A stretch of DNA of 64,000 nt from an uncultured Pelagibacteraceae bacterium (lineage in GTDB: Bacteria; Pseudomonadota; Alphaproteobacteria; Pelagibacterales; Pelagibacteraceae): NCBI GenBank assembly GCA_902543535.1, contig CACBYG010000003.1, positions 62,001 to 126,000 on the forward strand, given 5' to 3'. Made by a program: the position numbers and the translations under genes. Each line of letters starts with the position of its first letter. The stretch's first letter is position 1. Positions 2,127 to 37,761 of this stretch are shown here, one piece after another. The notes under the pieces were generated by a model, which saw only the letters and a program-made list of their open reading frames with translations, made no database searches and was not told the DNA's origin.

Positions 2127-3212
2127 ATGTCTAAAAATCCAGAATTCGTTAAATTTGATAAAGTTGATAAAAGCTATGATGGTAAAGTTTTAGTTGTTAA
2201 AGACCTTCAATTAGATATTGCTGAAGGTGAATTCATTACCATGCTTGGTCCCTCTGGATCTGGAAAAACAACTTGTCTAATGATGCTTGCAGGTTTTGAA
2301 ACTCCTACAAATGGAGAGATACTCTTAGATGGAAATATAATTTCTAACATTCCACCTCACAAAAGAGGGATTGGAATGGTCTTCCAAAATTATGCACTAT
2401 TTCCACATATGACTGTTTATGAAAATCTAGCTTTCCCTTTAAGAGTGAGAAAAATGGAAAAAGATGAAATAGATAAAAAAGTTGATAAAGCTTTATCAAT
2501 GGTCTCACTTAATGGATTTGAAACAAGAATGCCAGGACAACTATCAGGAGGACAACAACAAAGGGTAGCTGTAGCTAGAGCTTTAGTTTTTGATCCAGCA
2601 GTAGTTTTGATGGACGAACCTTTAGGTGCTTTGGATAAAAATTTAAGAGAGAGCATGCAATATGAAATTAAACATATTCATGAAAGCATTGGAGTGACTG
2701 TAGTTTATGTTACACACGATCAAAGTGAGGCATTAACAATGTCAAATAGAATTGCTGTGTTTAATGATGGTAAAGTTCAACAGCTATCAAATCCTTCAGA
2801 GCTTTATGAAAAACCAGTTAATTCATTCGTTGCAGAGTTTATTGGAGAAAATAATACATTTAATGGTGAAGTATCAGATATTTCAGGGGATGAATGTAAA
2901 GTTAAGCTATCCAATGGAGAAATAATAGCTAGTGCTATTACAGTAAAATCTAAGGGAGAAAAAACAACTGTTTCGTTAAGACCGGAGAGAGCCTTAATCG
3001 AACCAAGTGAAAAAATGGACAATATGTTTAGCGGCAAGATAGAAGAGGTAATCTATCATGGAGATCACACAAGAGTTCGAATTAATTTATTAGGAAACCC
3101 AGAATTTATTCTAAAAGTACCAAACAGTACTTCCAATCTAGAACTTAAGGTCAAACAAGATATTAAAATTGGCTGGAACAGTTCTGACGCAAGAGCTTTA
3201 GACCCAAAATAA
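2127..3212 (+). CDS. potA: Polyamine-type ABC importer ATPase (PotA-like)
   Basis: A 361-residue ATPase energising the importer encoded just downstream. Walker A is GPSGSGKTT near residue 42, the signature is LSGGQQQRVAVARAL near 140, Walker B is VVLMDEPLGALD near 160, and the switch histidine is in YVTHDQSEA. Residues from about 235 onward form the TOBE regulatory domain usual in PotA/UgpC ATPases. Length and domain order are normal. It lies 45 bases after doeA and 122 bases before the binding-protein ATG. The order potA-potD-potB-potC differs from the E. coli order. The substrate is inferred from the binding protein and the nearby agmatinase. Confidence 0.88.
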   Translation: MSKNPEFVKFDKVDKSYDGKVLVVKDLQLDIAEGEFITMLGPSGSGKTTCLMMLAGFETPTNGEILLDGNIISNIPPHKRGIGMVFQNYALFPHMTVYENLAFPLRVRKMEKDEIDKKVDKALSMVSLNGFETRMPGQLSGGQQQRVAVARALVFDPAVVLMDEPLGALDKNLRESMQYEIKHIHESIGVTVVYVTHDQSEALTMSNRIAVFNDGKVQQLSNPSELYEKPVNSFVAEFIGENNTFNGEVSDISGDECKVKLSNGEIIASAITVKSKGEKTTVSLRPERALIEPSEKMDNMFSGKIEEVIYHGDHTRVRINLLGNPEFILKVPNSTSNLELKVKQDIKIGWNSSDARALDPK

Positions 3213-3323: not shown

Positions 3324-3334
3324 ACGGAGGAATA

Positions 3335-4459
3335 ATGAGAAAATTAAGTAAATTGATACTTGCTCTTTCTTTTGTTGTATCTGTAACTTCTTCAGCCTTT
3401 GCTGTTACTGTAGCATCATGGGGTGGAGCTTATACAGACTCTCAAAAACAAGGGTATGGTGATCCAACAGCAGCAGCTCTAGGAATAGATATTAACTGGG
3501 TTGACTATTCTGGTGGACTATCAGAAATTAAGGCACAAAAAGAAGCGGGTGCTATAACTTGGGATATTATCGATGTATTTGCATTTGATACTATTAATGG
3601 TTGTGACGAAGGATTGTTTGTCAAATTTGATTTTGACAAAGACTTTCCAGCAGCTCCAGATGGAACGCCTGCAAGTGAGGACTTTTTTGCTCCAATGCCA
3701 AGTGAATGTGCAGTAGGAAATATTCTGTACTCTTGGAATTATGCTTTTGATACGAGAGCATTTGGTGGAAAAGAGCCTACAACAATTAAAGACTTTTTTA
3801 ACACTAAAAAATTTCCAGGTAAAAGAGCAATATACAAAAGTGCTCTAACAAATCTAGAAATCGCTTTAGCTGCTGACGGTGTAAACATGGGTAAAGGTGG
3901 AGAACTACTTTACAGAAAACTTGAAGAAGAAGGCGGTGTTGATAGAGCTATGAATAAAATTAAAGAACTTTGTACAGATCCAAATGGTGGATGTGTATTC
4001 TGGTCTGCAGGTGCTCAACCACCAGAACTATTAGTTGCTGGTGAAGTTGTTATGGCAACTGGTTGGAACGGAAGATTCTTTAACGCTGAAGTAGGTGAAG
4101 GCGCTCCAATTAAGCAAGTATGGCACGGTCAAGGTCTTGACTATGAGTATTTTGTACAAGTTAAAGGTGGACCTAACGATGCAAATGGAAATGCTTTAAA
4201 AGCTCTATCTATGATGACTAATACTGAAATGTTAGCTGGTAGTGCGAAGTATATTGCATATGCGCCATACAGAATATCATCTTTAGATATTATCAAAGCT
4301 AACGAGCCTTGGTACAAAGATGGTAAAACTGAAATGATGCCTCAAATGCCTACATCTCCTGGTAATACTAAGAAATATTTCTTAGTTGATCCTTTCTACT
4401 GGGCTGACAATGGAACAGAGATTGGTGAAAAATGGGAAGCAATGAAAGCAGGCCTATAA
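3335..4459 (+). CDS. potD: Periplasmic polyamine-type substrate-binding protein (PotD-like)
   Basis: The ORF track starts at a TTG at 3260, but the real start is the ATG at 3335: it follows GGAGG at 3326-3330 and begins a clear Sec signal peptide, MRKLSKLILALSFVVSVTSS with cleavage after AFA. The product is then 374 residues, the usual size for this family. The mature protein opens with VTVASWGGAY, the first strand of PotD/PotF-type (cluster D) binding proteins, and carries family features such as WDIIDVFAFD and a late YIAYAPYR. It delivers substrate to the PotBC channel. A dedicated promoter and a strong terminator bracket it, which suggests expression above the membrane subunits. Spermidine/putrescine is the likely ligand class; related amino-compounds are possible. 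Confidence 0.87.
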   Translation: MRKLSKLILALSFVVSVTSSAFAVTVASWGGAYTDSQKQGYGDPTAAALGIDINWVDYSGGLSEIKAQKEAGAITWDIIDVFAFDTINGCDEGLFVKFDFDKDFPAAPDGTPASEDFFAPMPSECAVGNILYSWNYAFDTRAFGGKEPTTIKDFFNTKKFPGKRAIYKSALTNLEIALAADGVNMGKGGELLYRKLEEEGGVDRAMNKIKELCTDPNGGCVFWSAGAQPPELLVAGEVVMATGWNGRFFNAEVGEGAPIKQVWHGQGLDYEYFVQVKGGPNDANGNALKALSMMTNTEMLAGSAKYIAYAPYRISSLDIIKANEPWYKDGKTEMMPQMPTSPGNTKKYFLVDPFYWADNGTEIGEKWEAMKAGL

Positions 4460-4496
4460 TTTCAGTTTTAAACACTGAATTAATATAATATATTTA

Positions 4497-4528
4497 GGGC
4501 GGTTATTAACTAACCGCCCTTTTTTTTT
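4497..4528 (+). terminator. Strong intrinsic terminator abutting the potB start codon
   Basis: GGGCGGTTA (4497-4505), loop TTAAC, TAACCGCCC (4511-4519), then nine T residues (4520-4528). The base after the last T is the A of the potB ATG. The stem is perfect with a GC-rich base. It should end most potD transcripts and leave potBC to read-through. Confidence 0.92.
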
Positions 4529-5791
4529 ATGAGCTCAGAAACAAAACAAATTTTAACGACTGATGGAATTCCACTAGAGGTTAGTCTAAAAAAAGCTGAA
4601 AAGAAGAATAAAATTAAGGCATTTCTTCTTGTAGCCCCATTACTATTATTTCTATTTATCACTTACGTTTTTCCAATCGGAGAAATGTTTACAAGAAGCG
4701 TAGATGATAAAATGATTACAAATATGCTCCCTAAAACTTTCAAAGCTATGGAAAAATGGGATGGAAAAGAATTACCATCAGAAGAAGTTTTTGCCAGTTT
4801 TTATTCAGACTACAAAATTTTAATTGAAAATCAAACACAAGGTAAACTTGGCCAAAGATTGAACAAGGAAAAAAATGGTTTTAACTCCATTACTAAAAAA
4901 TTAATGAGACAAATTAAAAGAAATAAAATTGATGAAAGTCAAAGTATCAAAGAACAAATTATGAAGACTCATAAGAGATGGGCAAATGTTGAATATTGGC
5001 AAGCAATAAAAAGAACTGCACCTCCTTACACTATGGCGAAATATCTAAAAGGGATGGATATGTATTTTGCAGCAGATGGAAGTATTGCACAAGTCGATGA
5101 GGATAGAAGAATACACAGAATACTTTGGCTAAGAACACTAGAAATAGCGTTGTTTGTAACTATTTTCTGTTTTTTAATGGGCTATCCAATAGCTCACTTA
5201 CTTGCAACATTGCCAATGAAATACAGTAATCTTTTAATGATATGTGTTCTCTTGCCGTTTTGGACTTCTTTATTAGTAAGAACTGCTAGCTGGATGATTT
5301 TGCTACAAACACAAGGAGTAGTAAATGATTTCTTTGTAATGATTGGTCTTGTTGCAGACAATAACAGGCCAGAGATGATGTATAACAAAGTTGGAACTTA
5401 TGTGGCAATGACCCAAATATTATTGCCATTTATGGTCCTTCCACTTTACAGTGTCATGAAAACAATTTCACCAAGCTTGATGAGAGCAGGTAAATCTTTA
5501 GGTGGAACACCGTTCATTGCATTTTGGAAAGTTTATTTCCCATTAACCATACCAGGTATTGGTGCGGGATGCTTGTTAGTATTTATTTTAGCGATTGGAT
5601 ATTATATTACCCCAGCATTAGTTGGAGGGGCCTCAGGGACTCTAATAAGTAATCAAATTGCTTACCATATGAAAACCACATTAGATTGGAGTTTTGCTTC
5701 AGCTATGGGATTAATGTTGCTATCTGGAGTTCTAGTAATCTATTGGATTTATAATAAATTAGTAGGAGTTGATAATATTAAGTTAGGTTAA
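4529..5791 (+). CDS. potB: Polyamine-type ABC importer permease (PotB-like)
   Basis: A 420-residue inner-membrane permease, longer than typical PotB (about 285) because of a long segment between the first helix (AFLLVAPLLLFLFITY, about 32-50) and the core domain. The core begins around residue 200 (TLEIALFVTIFCFLMGYPIAHL) and contains the ATPase-coupling EAA-type loop with SLGGTPFIAFWKVYFPLTIP. The insert of roughly 140 residues is charged, probably periplasmic, and of unknown function. The start ATG immediately follows the terminator T-tract, so there is no room for a Shine-Dalgarno sequence. Stop is 2 bases before the potC start. Confidence 0.85.
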   Translation: MSSETKQILTTDGIPLEVSLKKAEKKNKIKAFLLVAPLLLFLFITYVFPIGEMFTRSVDDKMITNMLPKTFKAMEKWDGKELPSEEVFASFYSDYKILIENQTQGKLGQRLNKEKNGFNSITKKLMRQIKRNKIDESQSIKEQIMKTHKRWANVEYWQAIKRTAPPYTMAKYLKGMDMYFAADGSIAQVDEDRRIHRILWLRTLEIALFVTIFCFLMGYPIAHLLATLPMKYSNLLMICVLLPFWTSLLVRTASWMILLQTQGVVNDFFVMIGLVADNNRPEMMYNKVGTYVAMTQILLPFMVLPLYSVMKTISPSLMRAGKSLGGTPFIAFWKVYFPLTIPGIGAGCLLVFILAIGYYITPALVGGASGTLISNQIAYHMKTTLDWSFASAMGLMLLSGVLVIYWIYNKLVGVDNIKLG

Positions 5792-5793
5792 TT

Positions 5794-6648
5794 ATGGCAT
5801 TACCAAGTTATACAGAAACACGATATAGAATTTGGCATTATTTTTATATTGCTGTTTGTACATTTGTATTTTTCTTTTTAATTGCACCTTTATTTGTAAT
5901 TTTTCCTTTATCATTTAATGCTGAAGAGTTTTTAGTTTTTTCTGAAGGAATGAAAAAGCTTGACCCAGATGCTTTTTCTTTTAGATGGTATCACGAAATG
6001 GTTTATGGAACTAAAAACCCATGGGGTTTAGCTGCAAAAAATAGTTTTATAATTGCGATATTTGCAACTATTGGATCAATAATTTTAGGAACACTTGCAG
6101 CCCTAGGTCTTAGCAGTAGGCATATGCCATACAAGGGTTTAATTATGGCAGTTTTAATTTCACCAATGATTGTTCCATTAATTATATCTGGTGTAGCTAT
6201 TTTCTTTTTTATGGCAAAAGTAGGTTTAGCAGCAACTCATACAGGAATAGTAATGGCCCATATTATATTGGGTACTCCTTTTGTGGTGATAACTGTTACT
6301 GCAACACTTTCAGGATTTGATCATAGTGTAACTCGAGCAGCCTCAAGTTTGGGAAGTAATCCAGTTAATACATTTATGAAAATTACATTACCTTTGATAC
6401 TTCCTGGTGTAATTTCAGGAGGATTGTTTGCATTTGTTACATCATTTGATGAAGTAGTTGTTGTATTATTTTTAGCAGGATTAGAGAATACGACTATTCC
6501 AGTTCAAATGTGGACAGGTTTAAGAGAACAATTAAGTCCTACCATTCTTGCAGTTGCAACATGTTTAATTGTTTTGTCTACTTTAATTTTAGTCACAGCA
6601 GAACTTTTAAGAAGAAGATCTGAGAGATTAAGAGGAATAAATAGATAA
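5794..6648 (+). CDS. potC: Polyamine-type ABC importer permease (PotC-like)
   Basis: A 284-residue permease of normal PotC length, with about six transmembrane helices: first at about 15-37 (YIAVCTFVFFFLIAPLFVI), then the core from about residue 80. The coupling loop reads AASSLGSNPVNTFMKITLPL, followed by the conserved PGVISGGLFAFVTSFDEVVV segment typical of PotC. It pairs with PotB to form the channel. Only 2 bases separate it from potB, so the two are cotranscribed and probably translationally coupled. A 36-base gap leads to the fatty-acid-oxidation-like gene, which may continue the operon. Confidence 0.87.
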   Translation: MALPSYTETRYRIWHYFYIAVCTFVFFFLIAPLFVIFPLSFNAEEFLVFSEGMKKLDPDAFSFRWYHEMVYGTKNPWGLAAKNSFIIAIFATIGSIILGTLAALGLSSRHMPYKGLIMAVLISPMIVPLIISGVAIFFFMAKVGLAATHTGIVMAHIILGTPFVVITVTATLSGFDHSVTRAASSLGSNPVNTFMKITLPLILPGVISGGLFAFVTSFDEVVVVLFLAGLENTTIPVQMWTGLREQLSPTILAVATCLIVLSTLILVTAELLRRRSERLRGINR

Positions 6649-14901: not shown

Positions 14902-17571
14902 ATGACCCCAGGAAACAAAAATTCGTATAATTCATTAAAAAAAATTTCAATAAATAATAAAGATTATAAATATTATTCTTTAATGGAAGCTGAAAAAAAT
15001 GGCCTTGAAGGAATATCAAAGCTTCCAAAATCTCTAAAAGTTCTCTTGGAGAACTTACTAAGATATGAGGACGATTTATCAGTAAACAAAAATCAAATAG
15101 ATTCAATTAAAAATTGGTTAGAGACAAAAAAATCAAATACAGAAATTGCTTATCGACCTGCAAGAGTTTTACTTCAGGATTACACTGGAATTCCAGCAGT
15201 TGCAGACTTAGCTGCAATGAGAGAAGCAGTTAAAGATAAAAATAAAGACCCAAACACAATTAATCCATTATCTTCAGTTGATCTTGTAATTGATCACTCA
15301 GTTCAAGTTGATCAATCTGCCAAAGCAGATTCTTTTGAAAAAAATGTTGATATCGAATTTGAAAGAAATGCAGAAAGGTATTCTTTTTTAAAGTGGGGAC
15401 AACAAGCTTTTAATAACTTTAGAATAGTACCTCCTGGAACTGGAATTTGTCACCAAGTAAACTTAGAATATTTATCTAAAGTAGTTTGGTCAGAGGAATT
15501 TAAAGGTGAAAATTATCTTTTTCCTGACACTTTAGTTGGTACAGATAGTCATACAACAATGGTTAATGGATTATCAGTTTTAGGTTGGGGTGTTGGTGGT
15601 ATTGAAGCAGAGGCTGGAATGCTAGGCCAACCTATATCTATGTTAATTCCAGAAGTTATCGGTTTCGAAATTAAAAATAAAATGCCTGAAGGAACTACTG
15701 CAACAGACTTAGTTTTAACAGTTGTTAAGATGTTAAGAGACAAAGGGGTTGTTGGAAAATTTGTTGAGTTTTATGGTGAGGGTTTAAAAAATTTAACTCT
15801 TGCGGATAGAGCAACTATAGCAAATATGGCTCCTGAATATGGAGCAACATGTGGTTTTTTTCCTATAGATGATGAGACTTTAAAATATTTAAAATTTTCA
15901 GGAAGAGATCAGCATACAATTGATATTGTTGAGAAGTATGCAAAAGAACAGGGACTATGGGCAAGTAATGATATTATTTTTACTGACAAACTGACATTAG
16001 ATATGTCTTCAATTGTACCCACTATCTCAGGCCCTAAAAGACCACAAGATAAAGTTTTATTAACAGATGCGCCAATGTCATTTAAAAAAATATTAGAGGA
16101 AGCAACCAATAAAAAAGAAAAGTCAGTTGCAAAAGTTTCAAATTCTGACTTTGAAATAAAAGATGGTTCTATACTTATTGCAGCAATAACTTCTTGTACA
16201 AATACCTCAAACCCAAATGTTTTAATTGGAGCAGGTTTGTTAGCTAAAAAAGCAGTTGAGTTTGGATTGAAAGTTAAGCCATGGGTTAAAACTTCCTTGG
16301 CACCAGGATCTCAGGTTGTTACAGATTACTTGGCTAAAGCTGGACTAAATACTTATTTAGATAAATTAGGCTTTAATTTAGTAGGTTATGGATGCACCAC
16401 CTGTATTGGTAATTCAGGTCCATTACCAGATAAAATTGTTGAAGCAATTCAAAAAGAAAATATTTATGCAGTCTCAGTTTTATCAGGTAACAGAAACTTT
16501 GAAGGAAGAATTTCTCCTCATATCAAGGGTAATTATTTAGCATCACCACCTTTAGTTGTTGCCTATGCATTAGCCGGTCACATGGAATTTGATTTATACA
16601 AAGACTCTTTAGGTAAAGATAAAGATGGTAATGACATTTATTTAAAAGACATATGGCCTTCAAATGATGAAATTGAAAGTACTTTAAAACAATCTTTAAA
16701 TCCAGATATGTTTATTAATAGATATTCTAATGTTTCTGAAGGACCTAGCCAATGGCAAAAAATTAAAACTGATCACAGCAGTATTTACAATTGGGACAAA
16801 GGCTCAACGTATGTAAAAAAACCACCATTTTTTGACTCTTTGCCAGATGAGCCAGAGGGATTTAAAGAAATAAAAGATGCAAGACCTTTGTTGATATTAG
16901 GTGATATGGTTACAACGGATCACATTTCCCCAGCGGGAAGTATTCAAAAAGACAGTCCAACAGGCGAGTACTTTATGGAGCATCAGATTTTGCCAAAAGA
17001 TTATAATTCGTACGGATCAAGAAGGGGAAACCATGAAGTAATGATGAGAGGCACATTTGCTAATATTAGAATAAGAAATGAAATGGCTCCAGGAACTGAA
17101 GGTGGATTTACAAAATTATATCCTGAAGGAAAAGTTTTATCAGTTTATGATGCAGTAGTAGAATATAAAAATAGAGGTACTGATTTAGTTGTAATCGGTG
17201 GTAAAGAATATGGAACTGGTTCTTCAAGAGATTGGGCCGCAAAGGGAACAAAATTATTAGGAATTAAAGCAGTAATAGCTGAAAGCTTTGAAAGAATTCA
17301 TAGATCTAATTTAATTGGAATGGGTATTTTGCCCTTACAATTTATAAATGAAGTTAATAGAAAAAATTTAAATTTAATTGGTTCAGAATTAATAAGTATT
17401 ATTGATATTGAAAAAGGAATTAATCCATCGGATGAAGTGATGGTGGAAATAAAATATGCATCTGGTGAAATAAAAAAAGTTAAAACTTTGTGTAGAATAG
17501 ATACCAAAAATGAGCTGGAGTATTATAAAAATGGTGGAATTTTACAATATGTGTTAAGGAATATGATTTAA
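14902..17571 (+). CDS. acnA: Aconitate hydratase (AcnA/IRP1 type)
   Basis: An 889-residue cytosolic TCA-cycle enzyme, full length for AcnA. The [4Fe-4S] cysteines appear in ITSCTNTSNPNVLIG and in GYGCTTCIGNSGPL; other conserved segments are GTDSHTTMVNGLSVLGWGVGG and the C-terminal swivel-domain GKEYGTGSSRDWAAKG. It interconverts citrate and isocitrate. It follows the LysE gene by a single base and is followed 2 bases later by the YfgM-like gene, so these may be cotranscribed. Confidence 0.96.
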   Translation: MTPGNKNSYNSLKKISINNKDYKYYSLMEAEKNGLEGISKLPKSLKVLLENLLRYEDDLSVNKNQIDSIKNWLETKKSNTEIAYRPARVLLQDYTGIPAVADLAAMREAVKDKNKDPNTINPLSSVDLVIDHSVQVDQSAKADSFEKNVDIEFERNAERYSFLKWGQQAFNNFRIVPPGTGICHQVNLEYLSKVVWSEEFKGENYLFPDTLVGTDSHTTMVNGLSVLGWGVGGIEAEAGMLGQPISMLIPEVIGFEIKNKMPEGTTATDLVLTVVKMLRDKGVVGKFVEFYGEGLKNLTLADRATIANMAPEYGATCGFFPIDDETLKYLKFSGRDQHTIDIVEKYAKEQGLWASNDIIFTDKLTLDMSSIVPTISGPKRPQDKVLLTDAPMSFKKILEEATNKKEKSVAKVSNSDFEIKDGSILIAAITSCTNTSNPNVLIGAGLLAKKAVEFGLKVKPWVKTSLAPGSQVVTDYLAKAGLNTYLDKLGFNLVGYGCTTCIGNSGPLPDKIVEAIQKENIYAVSVLSGNRNFEGRISPHIKGNYLASPPLVVAYALAGHMEFDLYKDSLGKDKDGNDIYLKDIWPSNDEIESTLKQSLNPDMFINRYSNVSEGPSQWQKIKTDHSSIYNWDKGSTYVKKPPFFDSLPDEPEGFKEIKDARPLLILGDMVTTDHISPAGSIQKDSPTGEYFMEHQILPKDYNSYGSRRGNHEVMMRGTFANIRIRNEMAPGTEGGFTKLYPEGKVLSVYDAVVEYKNRGTDLVVIGGKEYGTGSSRDWAAKGTKLLGIKAVIAESFERIHRSNLIGMGILPLQFINEVNRKNLNLIGSELISIIDIEKGINPSDEVMVEIKYASGEIKKVKTLCRIDTKNELEYYKNGGILQYVLRNMI

Positions 17572-37727: not shown

Positions 37728-37761
37728 ATCTCTCCCGACTTTGTCGGGAGGGATTTTTTTT
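37728..37761 (+). terminator. Intrinsic terminator after tmoX
   Basis: CTCCCGAC (37732-37739), loop TTT, GTCGGGAG (37743-37750), extended at the base by ATCT/GGAT-type pairing, then a run of seven or more T residues from 37754. It is 27 bases before the start of the MORN gene and separates tmoX from the remaining transporter genes. Confidence 0.92.

Follow-up and report, generated by a model that had tools for sequence, protein, structure and literature searches.

The window examined here, which is the whole 64,000-nucleotide stretch of DNA that was analyzed, belongs to a 1.1-Mb draft genome whose nearest named relatives are Pelagibacteraceae (SAR11). The junction of interest lies between a gene for a PotD-like substrate-binding protein (SBP) and the gene for a PotB-like permease, in the following arrangement:

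2127..3212, forward strand: potA-like gene for an ABC transporter ATPase (NCBIfam TIGR01187 potA above the cut-off; Pfam ABC_tran and TOBE_2)
3326..3330, forward strand: Shine-Dalgarno (SD) sequence of potD, GGAGG, as read from the sequence
3335..4459, forward strand: potD-like gene for the SBP (Pfam SBP_bac_8)
4460..4495, forward strand: AT-rich spacer of 36 nt (sequence)
4496..4520, forward strand: terminator hairpin of 10 bp, 6 of them G-C (sequence, folding, conservation)
4520..4528, forward strand: nine-T tract (U-tract) directly abutting the potB ATG (sequence, conservation)
4529..5791, forward strand: potB-like permease gene, ATG at 4529-4531, with no SD sequence (Pfam/NCBIfam, codon analysis)
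5794..6648, forward strand: potC-like permease gene (Pfam/NCBIfam)

Before potA, at 166-2081 of the window, lie two genes that resemble ectoine-degradation enzymes (EutA-like and DoeA/EutD-like; NCBIfam matches below the cut-off), and because of these neighbors the substrates of the transporter may include more than polyamines.

The potD gene ends with a TAA stop codon (4457-4459), and the stem of the hairpin beyond the spacer is formed by AGGGCGGTTA (4496-4505) and TAACCGCCCT (4511-4520) around the loop TTAAC, with the first T of the T9 run (4520) being able to pair with A4496. These details agree with the earlier note on this DNA, which had described a GC-rich hairpin whose nine-T tract ends at 4528, immediately before a potB ATG at 4529, and had recognized the shape of an intrinsic terminator between the two genes. 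Folding of positions 4456-4560 yields a z-score of -3.9, and none of 200 dinucleotide shuffles folds as well. A lax scan for terminators is by itself not significant (3 found versus 5.1 expected), and the evidence for a terminator therefore comes from the strength of this particular hairpin and from its conservation rather than from that scan.

The ATG at 4529-4531 is the real start of potB, which encodes a permease of 420 amino acids. The third codon of potB specifies Ser but is spelled TCA, TCT, AGC or AGT depending on the clade, and the distances between stem and ATG among relatives fall in all three phases; the synonymous variation and the mixture of phases together indicate that coding begins at this ATG. 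The earlier note had allowed for an internal start farther downstream. We rejected such alternatives because the next in-frame ATG comes only at codon 53 and codon usage has the character of coding sequence from codon 2 onward, which leaves the 4529 ATG as the one usable start before codon 53. In the predicted fold of a read-through RNA the potB AUG is partly paired, with an unpaired probability of 0.22 (mean for relatives, 0.34), and this pairing might be taken as a weak hint of reduced initiation.

Relatives of PotB are present in 131 of 297 genomes of the family, and a hairpin occurs at all 90 of the orthologous junctions that were read. In a second set, consisting of 80 named Pelagibacteraceae loci that partly overlap the 90, a T-rich tail of 7-9 nt separates the stem core from the potB ATG at every locus, and potB is never preceded by an SD-like sequence; since an SD-less start abutting the T-tract is kept in all 80, it is a working start. 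The tail is nearly always limited to a few T-rich bases in the genus of the window and the nearest genera, and three relatives have stem-to-ATG distances of 22-24 nt (L047, L065 and L070). In more distant genera, with PotB identities of ~55%, the hairpin has a different sequence, the ATG lies ~11-20 nt away from it and an SD-like sequence sometimes precedes the ATG. Consensus folding produces one helix of 7 pairs, of which 4 are invariant and 3 exhibit two-sided changes in a few sequences, a pattern of covariation that gives the hairpin real but modest support. The layout of this junction is not a product of chance, and its conservation is far above chance. At one locus (G196:C8:43106-44369, L091) stop codons interrupt potB, yet the terminator junction is intact. 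A search of viral contigs for the exact sequence gave no match.

The potD-potB junction exemplifies a pattern found across the genome. We analyzed 875 kb of stretches from a near-complete relative, G063, in which SBPs were confirmed by Pfam and the potD orthologue by homology to the potD of the window. The 196 same-strand gaps of 20-250 nt in these stretches contain 30 strong hairpins, 20 of them after SBP genes. A perfect GC-rich hairpin occupies 20 of the 23 gaps between an SBP gene and the next gene; for the remaining same-strand gaps the count is 10 of 173 (Fisher p ~4e-17). This comparison carries a mild ascertainment bias from three SBPs that were listed because they had been noticed beside hairpins. 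The fold energy is at or below -16 kcal/mol in 22 of the 23 SBP gaps, against a median of -5.5 for the other gaps. To offset the ascertainment bias, regions of a distant relative, G035, were picked from permease matches alone, and a strict hairpin was found at 19 of 21 junctions (the exceptions being L330 and L334) downstream of genes whose SBP status was judged from sequence and context.

The pattern (L092-L131 and L204-L207 in G063; L323-L345 in G035) spans ABC, TRAP, TAXI and phosphate systems, and its details vary. A MalF-like permease gene that follows an SBP gene is preceded by a hairpin distinct from that of potB; at each of the 25 loci that were readable (of 30), the T-rich tail of this hairpin extends right up to the ATG. 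A HisM-like permease gene has a strong hairpin 4-5 nt before its start codon in G063, G000, G003 and G035 (position 17337 of G063, which is L092, and L140, L142 and L331), and this hairpin has no T-tract. At three DctQ genes of G035 (L338, L339 and L344) the stem is followed by a T-rich tail of 3-6 nt, and several other SBP hairpins in G063 and G035 have no T-tract.

The same genes differ in their ribosome-binding signals. SD-like sequences precede 119 of 737 genes in G063 (16%) and 11 of 53 genes in the window (21%), against a background of ~6%. With gene starts called by a simple rule, an SD sequence is found at 18 of the 23 SBP starts in G063 as called, some of the others looking like wrongly called starts, and at none of the 23 genes that follow SBP genes, most of which offer 16-109 nt of room for one. 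The earlier note was right that potB has no SD sequence (there is none in positions -20 to -4), but it had ascribed the absence to the abutting T-tract and expected weakened initiation as a result. Since post-SBP genes with ample room are SD-less too, the T-tract is not the cause, and this argument for weakened initiation falls with it; SD-less starts are the norm here. We likewise rejected the absence of an SD sequence as a peculiarity of the potB junction, as post-SBP genes are SD-less wherever tested. The three G035 genes flagged as having an SD sequence, at the DctQ junctions L338, L339 and L343, have their SD-like bases (GGGG or GAGG) solely within the hairpin's 3' arm, where these might be sequestered. 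From the sequences compared, the combination of an SD sequence at the SBP gene, a hairpin after it and an SD-less next gene looks like a genome-wide rule of gene expression in SAR11.

The sequences establish the anatomy of the junction, its conservation, the genome-wide link between hairpins and SBP genes and the difference in SD use; partial termination, protection of mRNA and a resulting protein ratio are what we infer. The explanation that we consider quite probable is that a leaky internal terminator follows potD, also shields the 3' end of the potD mRNA, and leads to an excess of PotD over PotBC. RNA polymerase would transcribe potD, and a fraction of the polymerases would stop at the hairpin and U-tract, giving transcripts that end after potD and are probably also protected from exonucleases by the hairpin at their 3' end. 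The remaining polymerases would read through into potBC, and potB, which likely depends on such read-through transcripts, would be initiated at the AUG next to the U-tract with no SD sequence, which is the usual situation of post-SBP genes in these genomes. The potD stop codon lies 36 nt before the hairpin, presumably too far for a ribosome that terminates there to touch it, so transcription termination should be independent of the translation of potD. Nor should potB initiation affect the decision to terminate, because the polymerase would have to be past the U-tract before the AUG is synthesized. The efficiency of termination could lie anywhere from near 0 to near 100%.

Internal terminators after SBP genes have been shown to set the ratios of SBP to translocator transcripts in Ruminiclostridium cellulolyticum, and similar ones have been predicted for E. 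coli (PMC9045158). The likeness is close: in R. cellulolyticum a single GC-rich stem-loop, with no antiterminator, lies after the SBP gene and before the translocator genes, and the potD-potB junction has the same position, a GC-rich stem with a U-tract and no competing antiterminator, so that it too would be expected to set a transcript ratio. Termination was measured in R. cellulolyticum (PMC9045158), and SAR11 differs in that the U-tract can reach the start codon of the permease gene, the next genes are SD-less and TRAP-type systems are included. PotD has been reported among the most abundant proteins of SAR11, and according to the same report the cells have a large periplasm filled with binding proteins (PMC8437039). 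The expectation in the earlier note of less permease than PotD is plausible in its direction, and fits both this abundance and the clostridial elements (PMC9045158), even though its argument from the SD sequence does not hold.

The abutment of the T-tract and the potB start codon may be a neutral result of streamlining, may serve to weaken initiation or may offer ribosomes a U-rich site on which to land. The chances are about even that it serves no purpose and that, in a genome undergoing streamlining, deletion bias removed everything between the terminator and the start codon. The median same-strand gap in G063 is 5 nt, distances of 22-24 nt are tolerated in the three relatives noted above, and hairpin-to-start distances at other SBP genes vary continuously from 5 nt up, all of which favor such a neutral origin; the constancy of a T-rich tail of 7-9 nt in the 80 named loci speaks against it. 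Deletion bias accounts for the spacing only and is compatible with a leaky terminator as the explanation for the hairpin.

A different role for the hairpin itself, which we regard as possible but rather doubtful, would be mainly post-transcriptional. After processing, the potD mRNA would end in the hairpin, which would block 3'-to-5' exonucleases, as between malE and malF, with termination being minor and the T-tract secondary. Protective hairpins without U-tracts are known for malE in E. coli, where other SBP mRNAs, including that of potD, are also stabilized (PMC5927463). The hairpins of the malE-malF type (PMC5927463) resemble those of SAR11 in lying on the 3' side of the SBP gene, and some SAR11 SBP hairpins likewise have no U-tract, so that the function shared by the SAR11 hairpins may be the protection of mRNA and not termination. 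The malE-type hairpins have no U-tract for termination, however, and the potD hairpin has T9; a T-tract kept in all 80 named loci would not be needed for protection alone.

Returning to the leaky terminator, we think it rather unlikely, though worth stating, that its U-tract doubles as the site at which ribosomes land on the SD-less permease gene (for example, via ribosomal protein S1). One element of ~35 nt would then govern the transcript ratio and, at the same time, how the next gene is translated. It would have arisen repeatedly (PotB, MalF-like, DctQ) as part of a code that holds across the genome, in which binding-protein genes have an SD sequence and a hairpin and permease genes have no SD sequence. 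The U8 of E. coli rnd is a U-rich element recognized by S1, and such elements, at rnd as at thrS, share with the SAR11 junction a U-rich single strand near the start codon and beside a hairpin. The U-rich ribosome-binding element of thrS is also recognized by S1, but thrS has an SD sequence (PMC3858243) and potB has none, and a role of the SAR11 U-tract in translation is hypothetical.

Still less probable is a promoter of potBC in the AT-rich spacer (TATAAT at 4484-4489 or TATATT at 4489-4494). Transcripts made from it would begin within the 5' arm of the hairpin with a leader of ~30 nt, and would be missing some of the stem and avoid being terminated. Nearly all genus-level relatives do carry a TATAAT-like hexamer ahead of the stem core, at a distance of 0-9 nt, and the 36-nt spacer is longer than the 9-22 nt usual between other SBP genes and their hairpins; but the mean promoter score of 8.9 of 12, versus 8.0 for shuffles, is weak in such AT-rich DNA, and the element is missing from distant genera and from the MalF-like junction. 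The same weak promoter-like signal is what would bear on a leaderless potB mRNA, whose 5' end would lie at the AUG or just ahead of it. Control by a polyamine-sensing riboswitch or attenuator, as might be imagined from the small inverted repeat before the hairpin (TTCAGT at 4461-4466 and ACTGAA at 4474-4479) and the predicted transport of polyamines by the operon, is very improbable and was rejected, since neither a conserved aptamer nor alternative structures lie upstream of the terminator (consensus folding yields the single helix, and an Rfam search of the whole window found no family at threshold, weak matches such as L20_leader reaching half the gathering score) and the same type of hairpin follows SBPs for unrelated substrates.

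An earlier report of the SD and hairpin rule for SBP genes of SAR11 was not found in the open-access literature searched, which leaves most subscription journals outside, and a term search of a published survey of P. ubique structured RNAs brought up no passage on the potD-potB junction (PMC2704228). As far as this literature shows, internal terminators downstream of SBP genes are already known, and the genome-wide rule in SAR11 and the fusion of terminator and start codon are new. The rule suggests how a simple arrangement of sequences (SD at the SBP gene, hairpin after it, SD-less next gene) would produce an excess of binding protein, and it makes the SBP-to-permease ratio testable from existing RNA-seq data in a dominant ocean bacterium. 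The junctions also represent natural fusions of terminator and start codon for the study of SD-less initiation. Elsewhere in the window, at 37728-37753, a strong terminator follows the gene for a second SBP (OpuAC/ProX-like by sequence), and the gene beyond it is an unrelated, MORN-repeat-like one.
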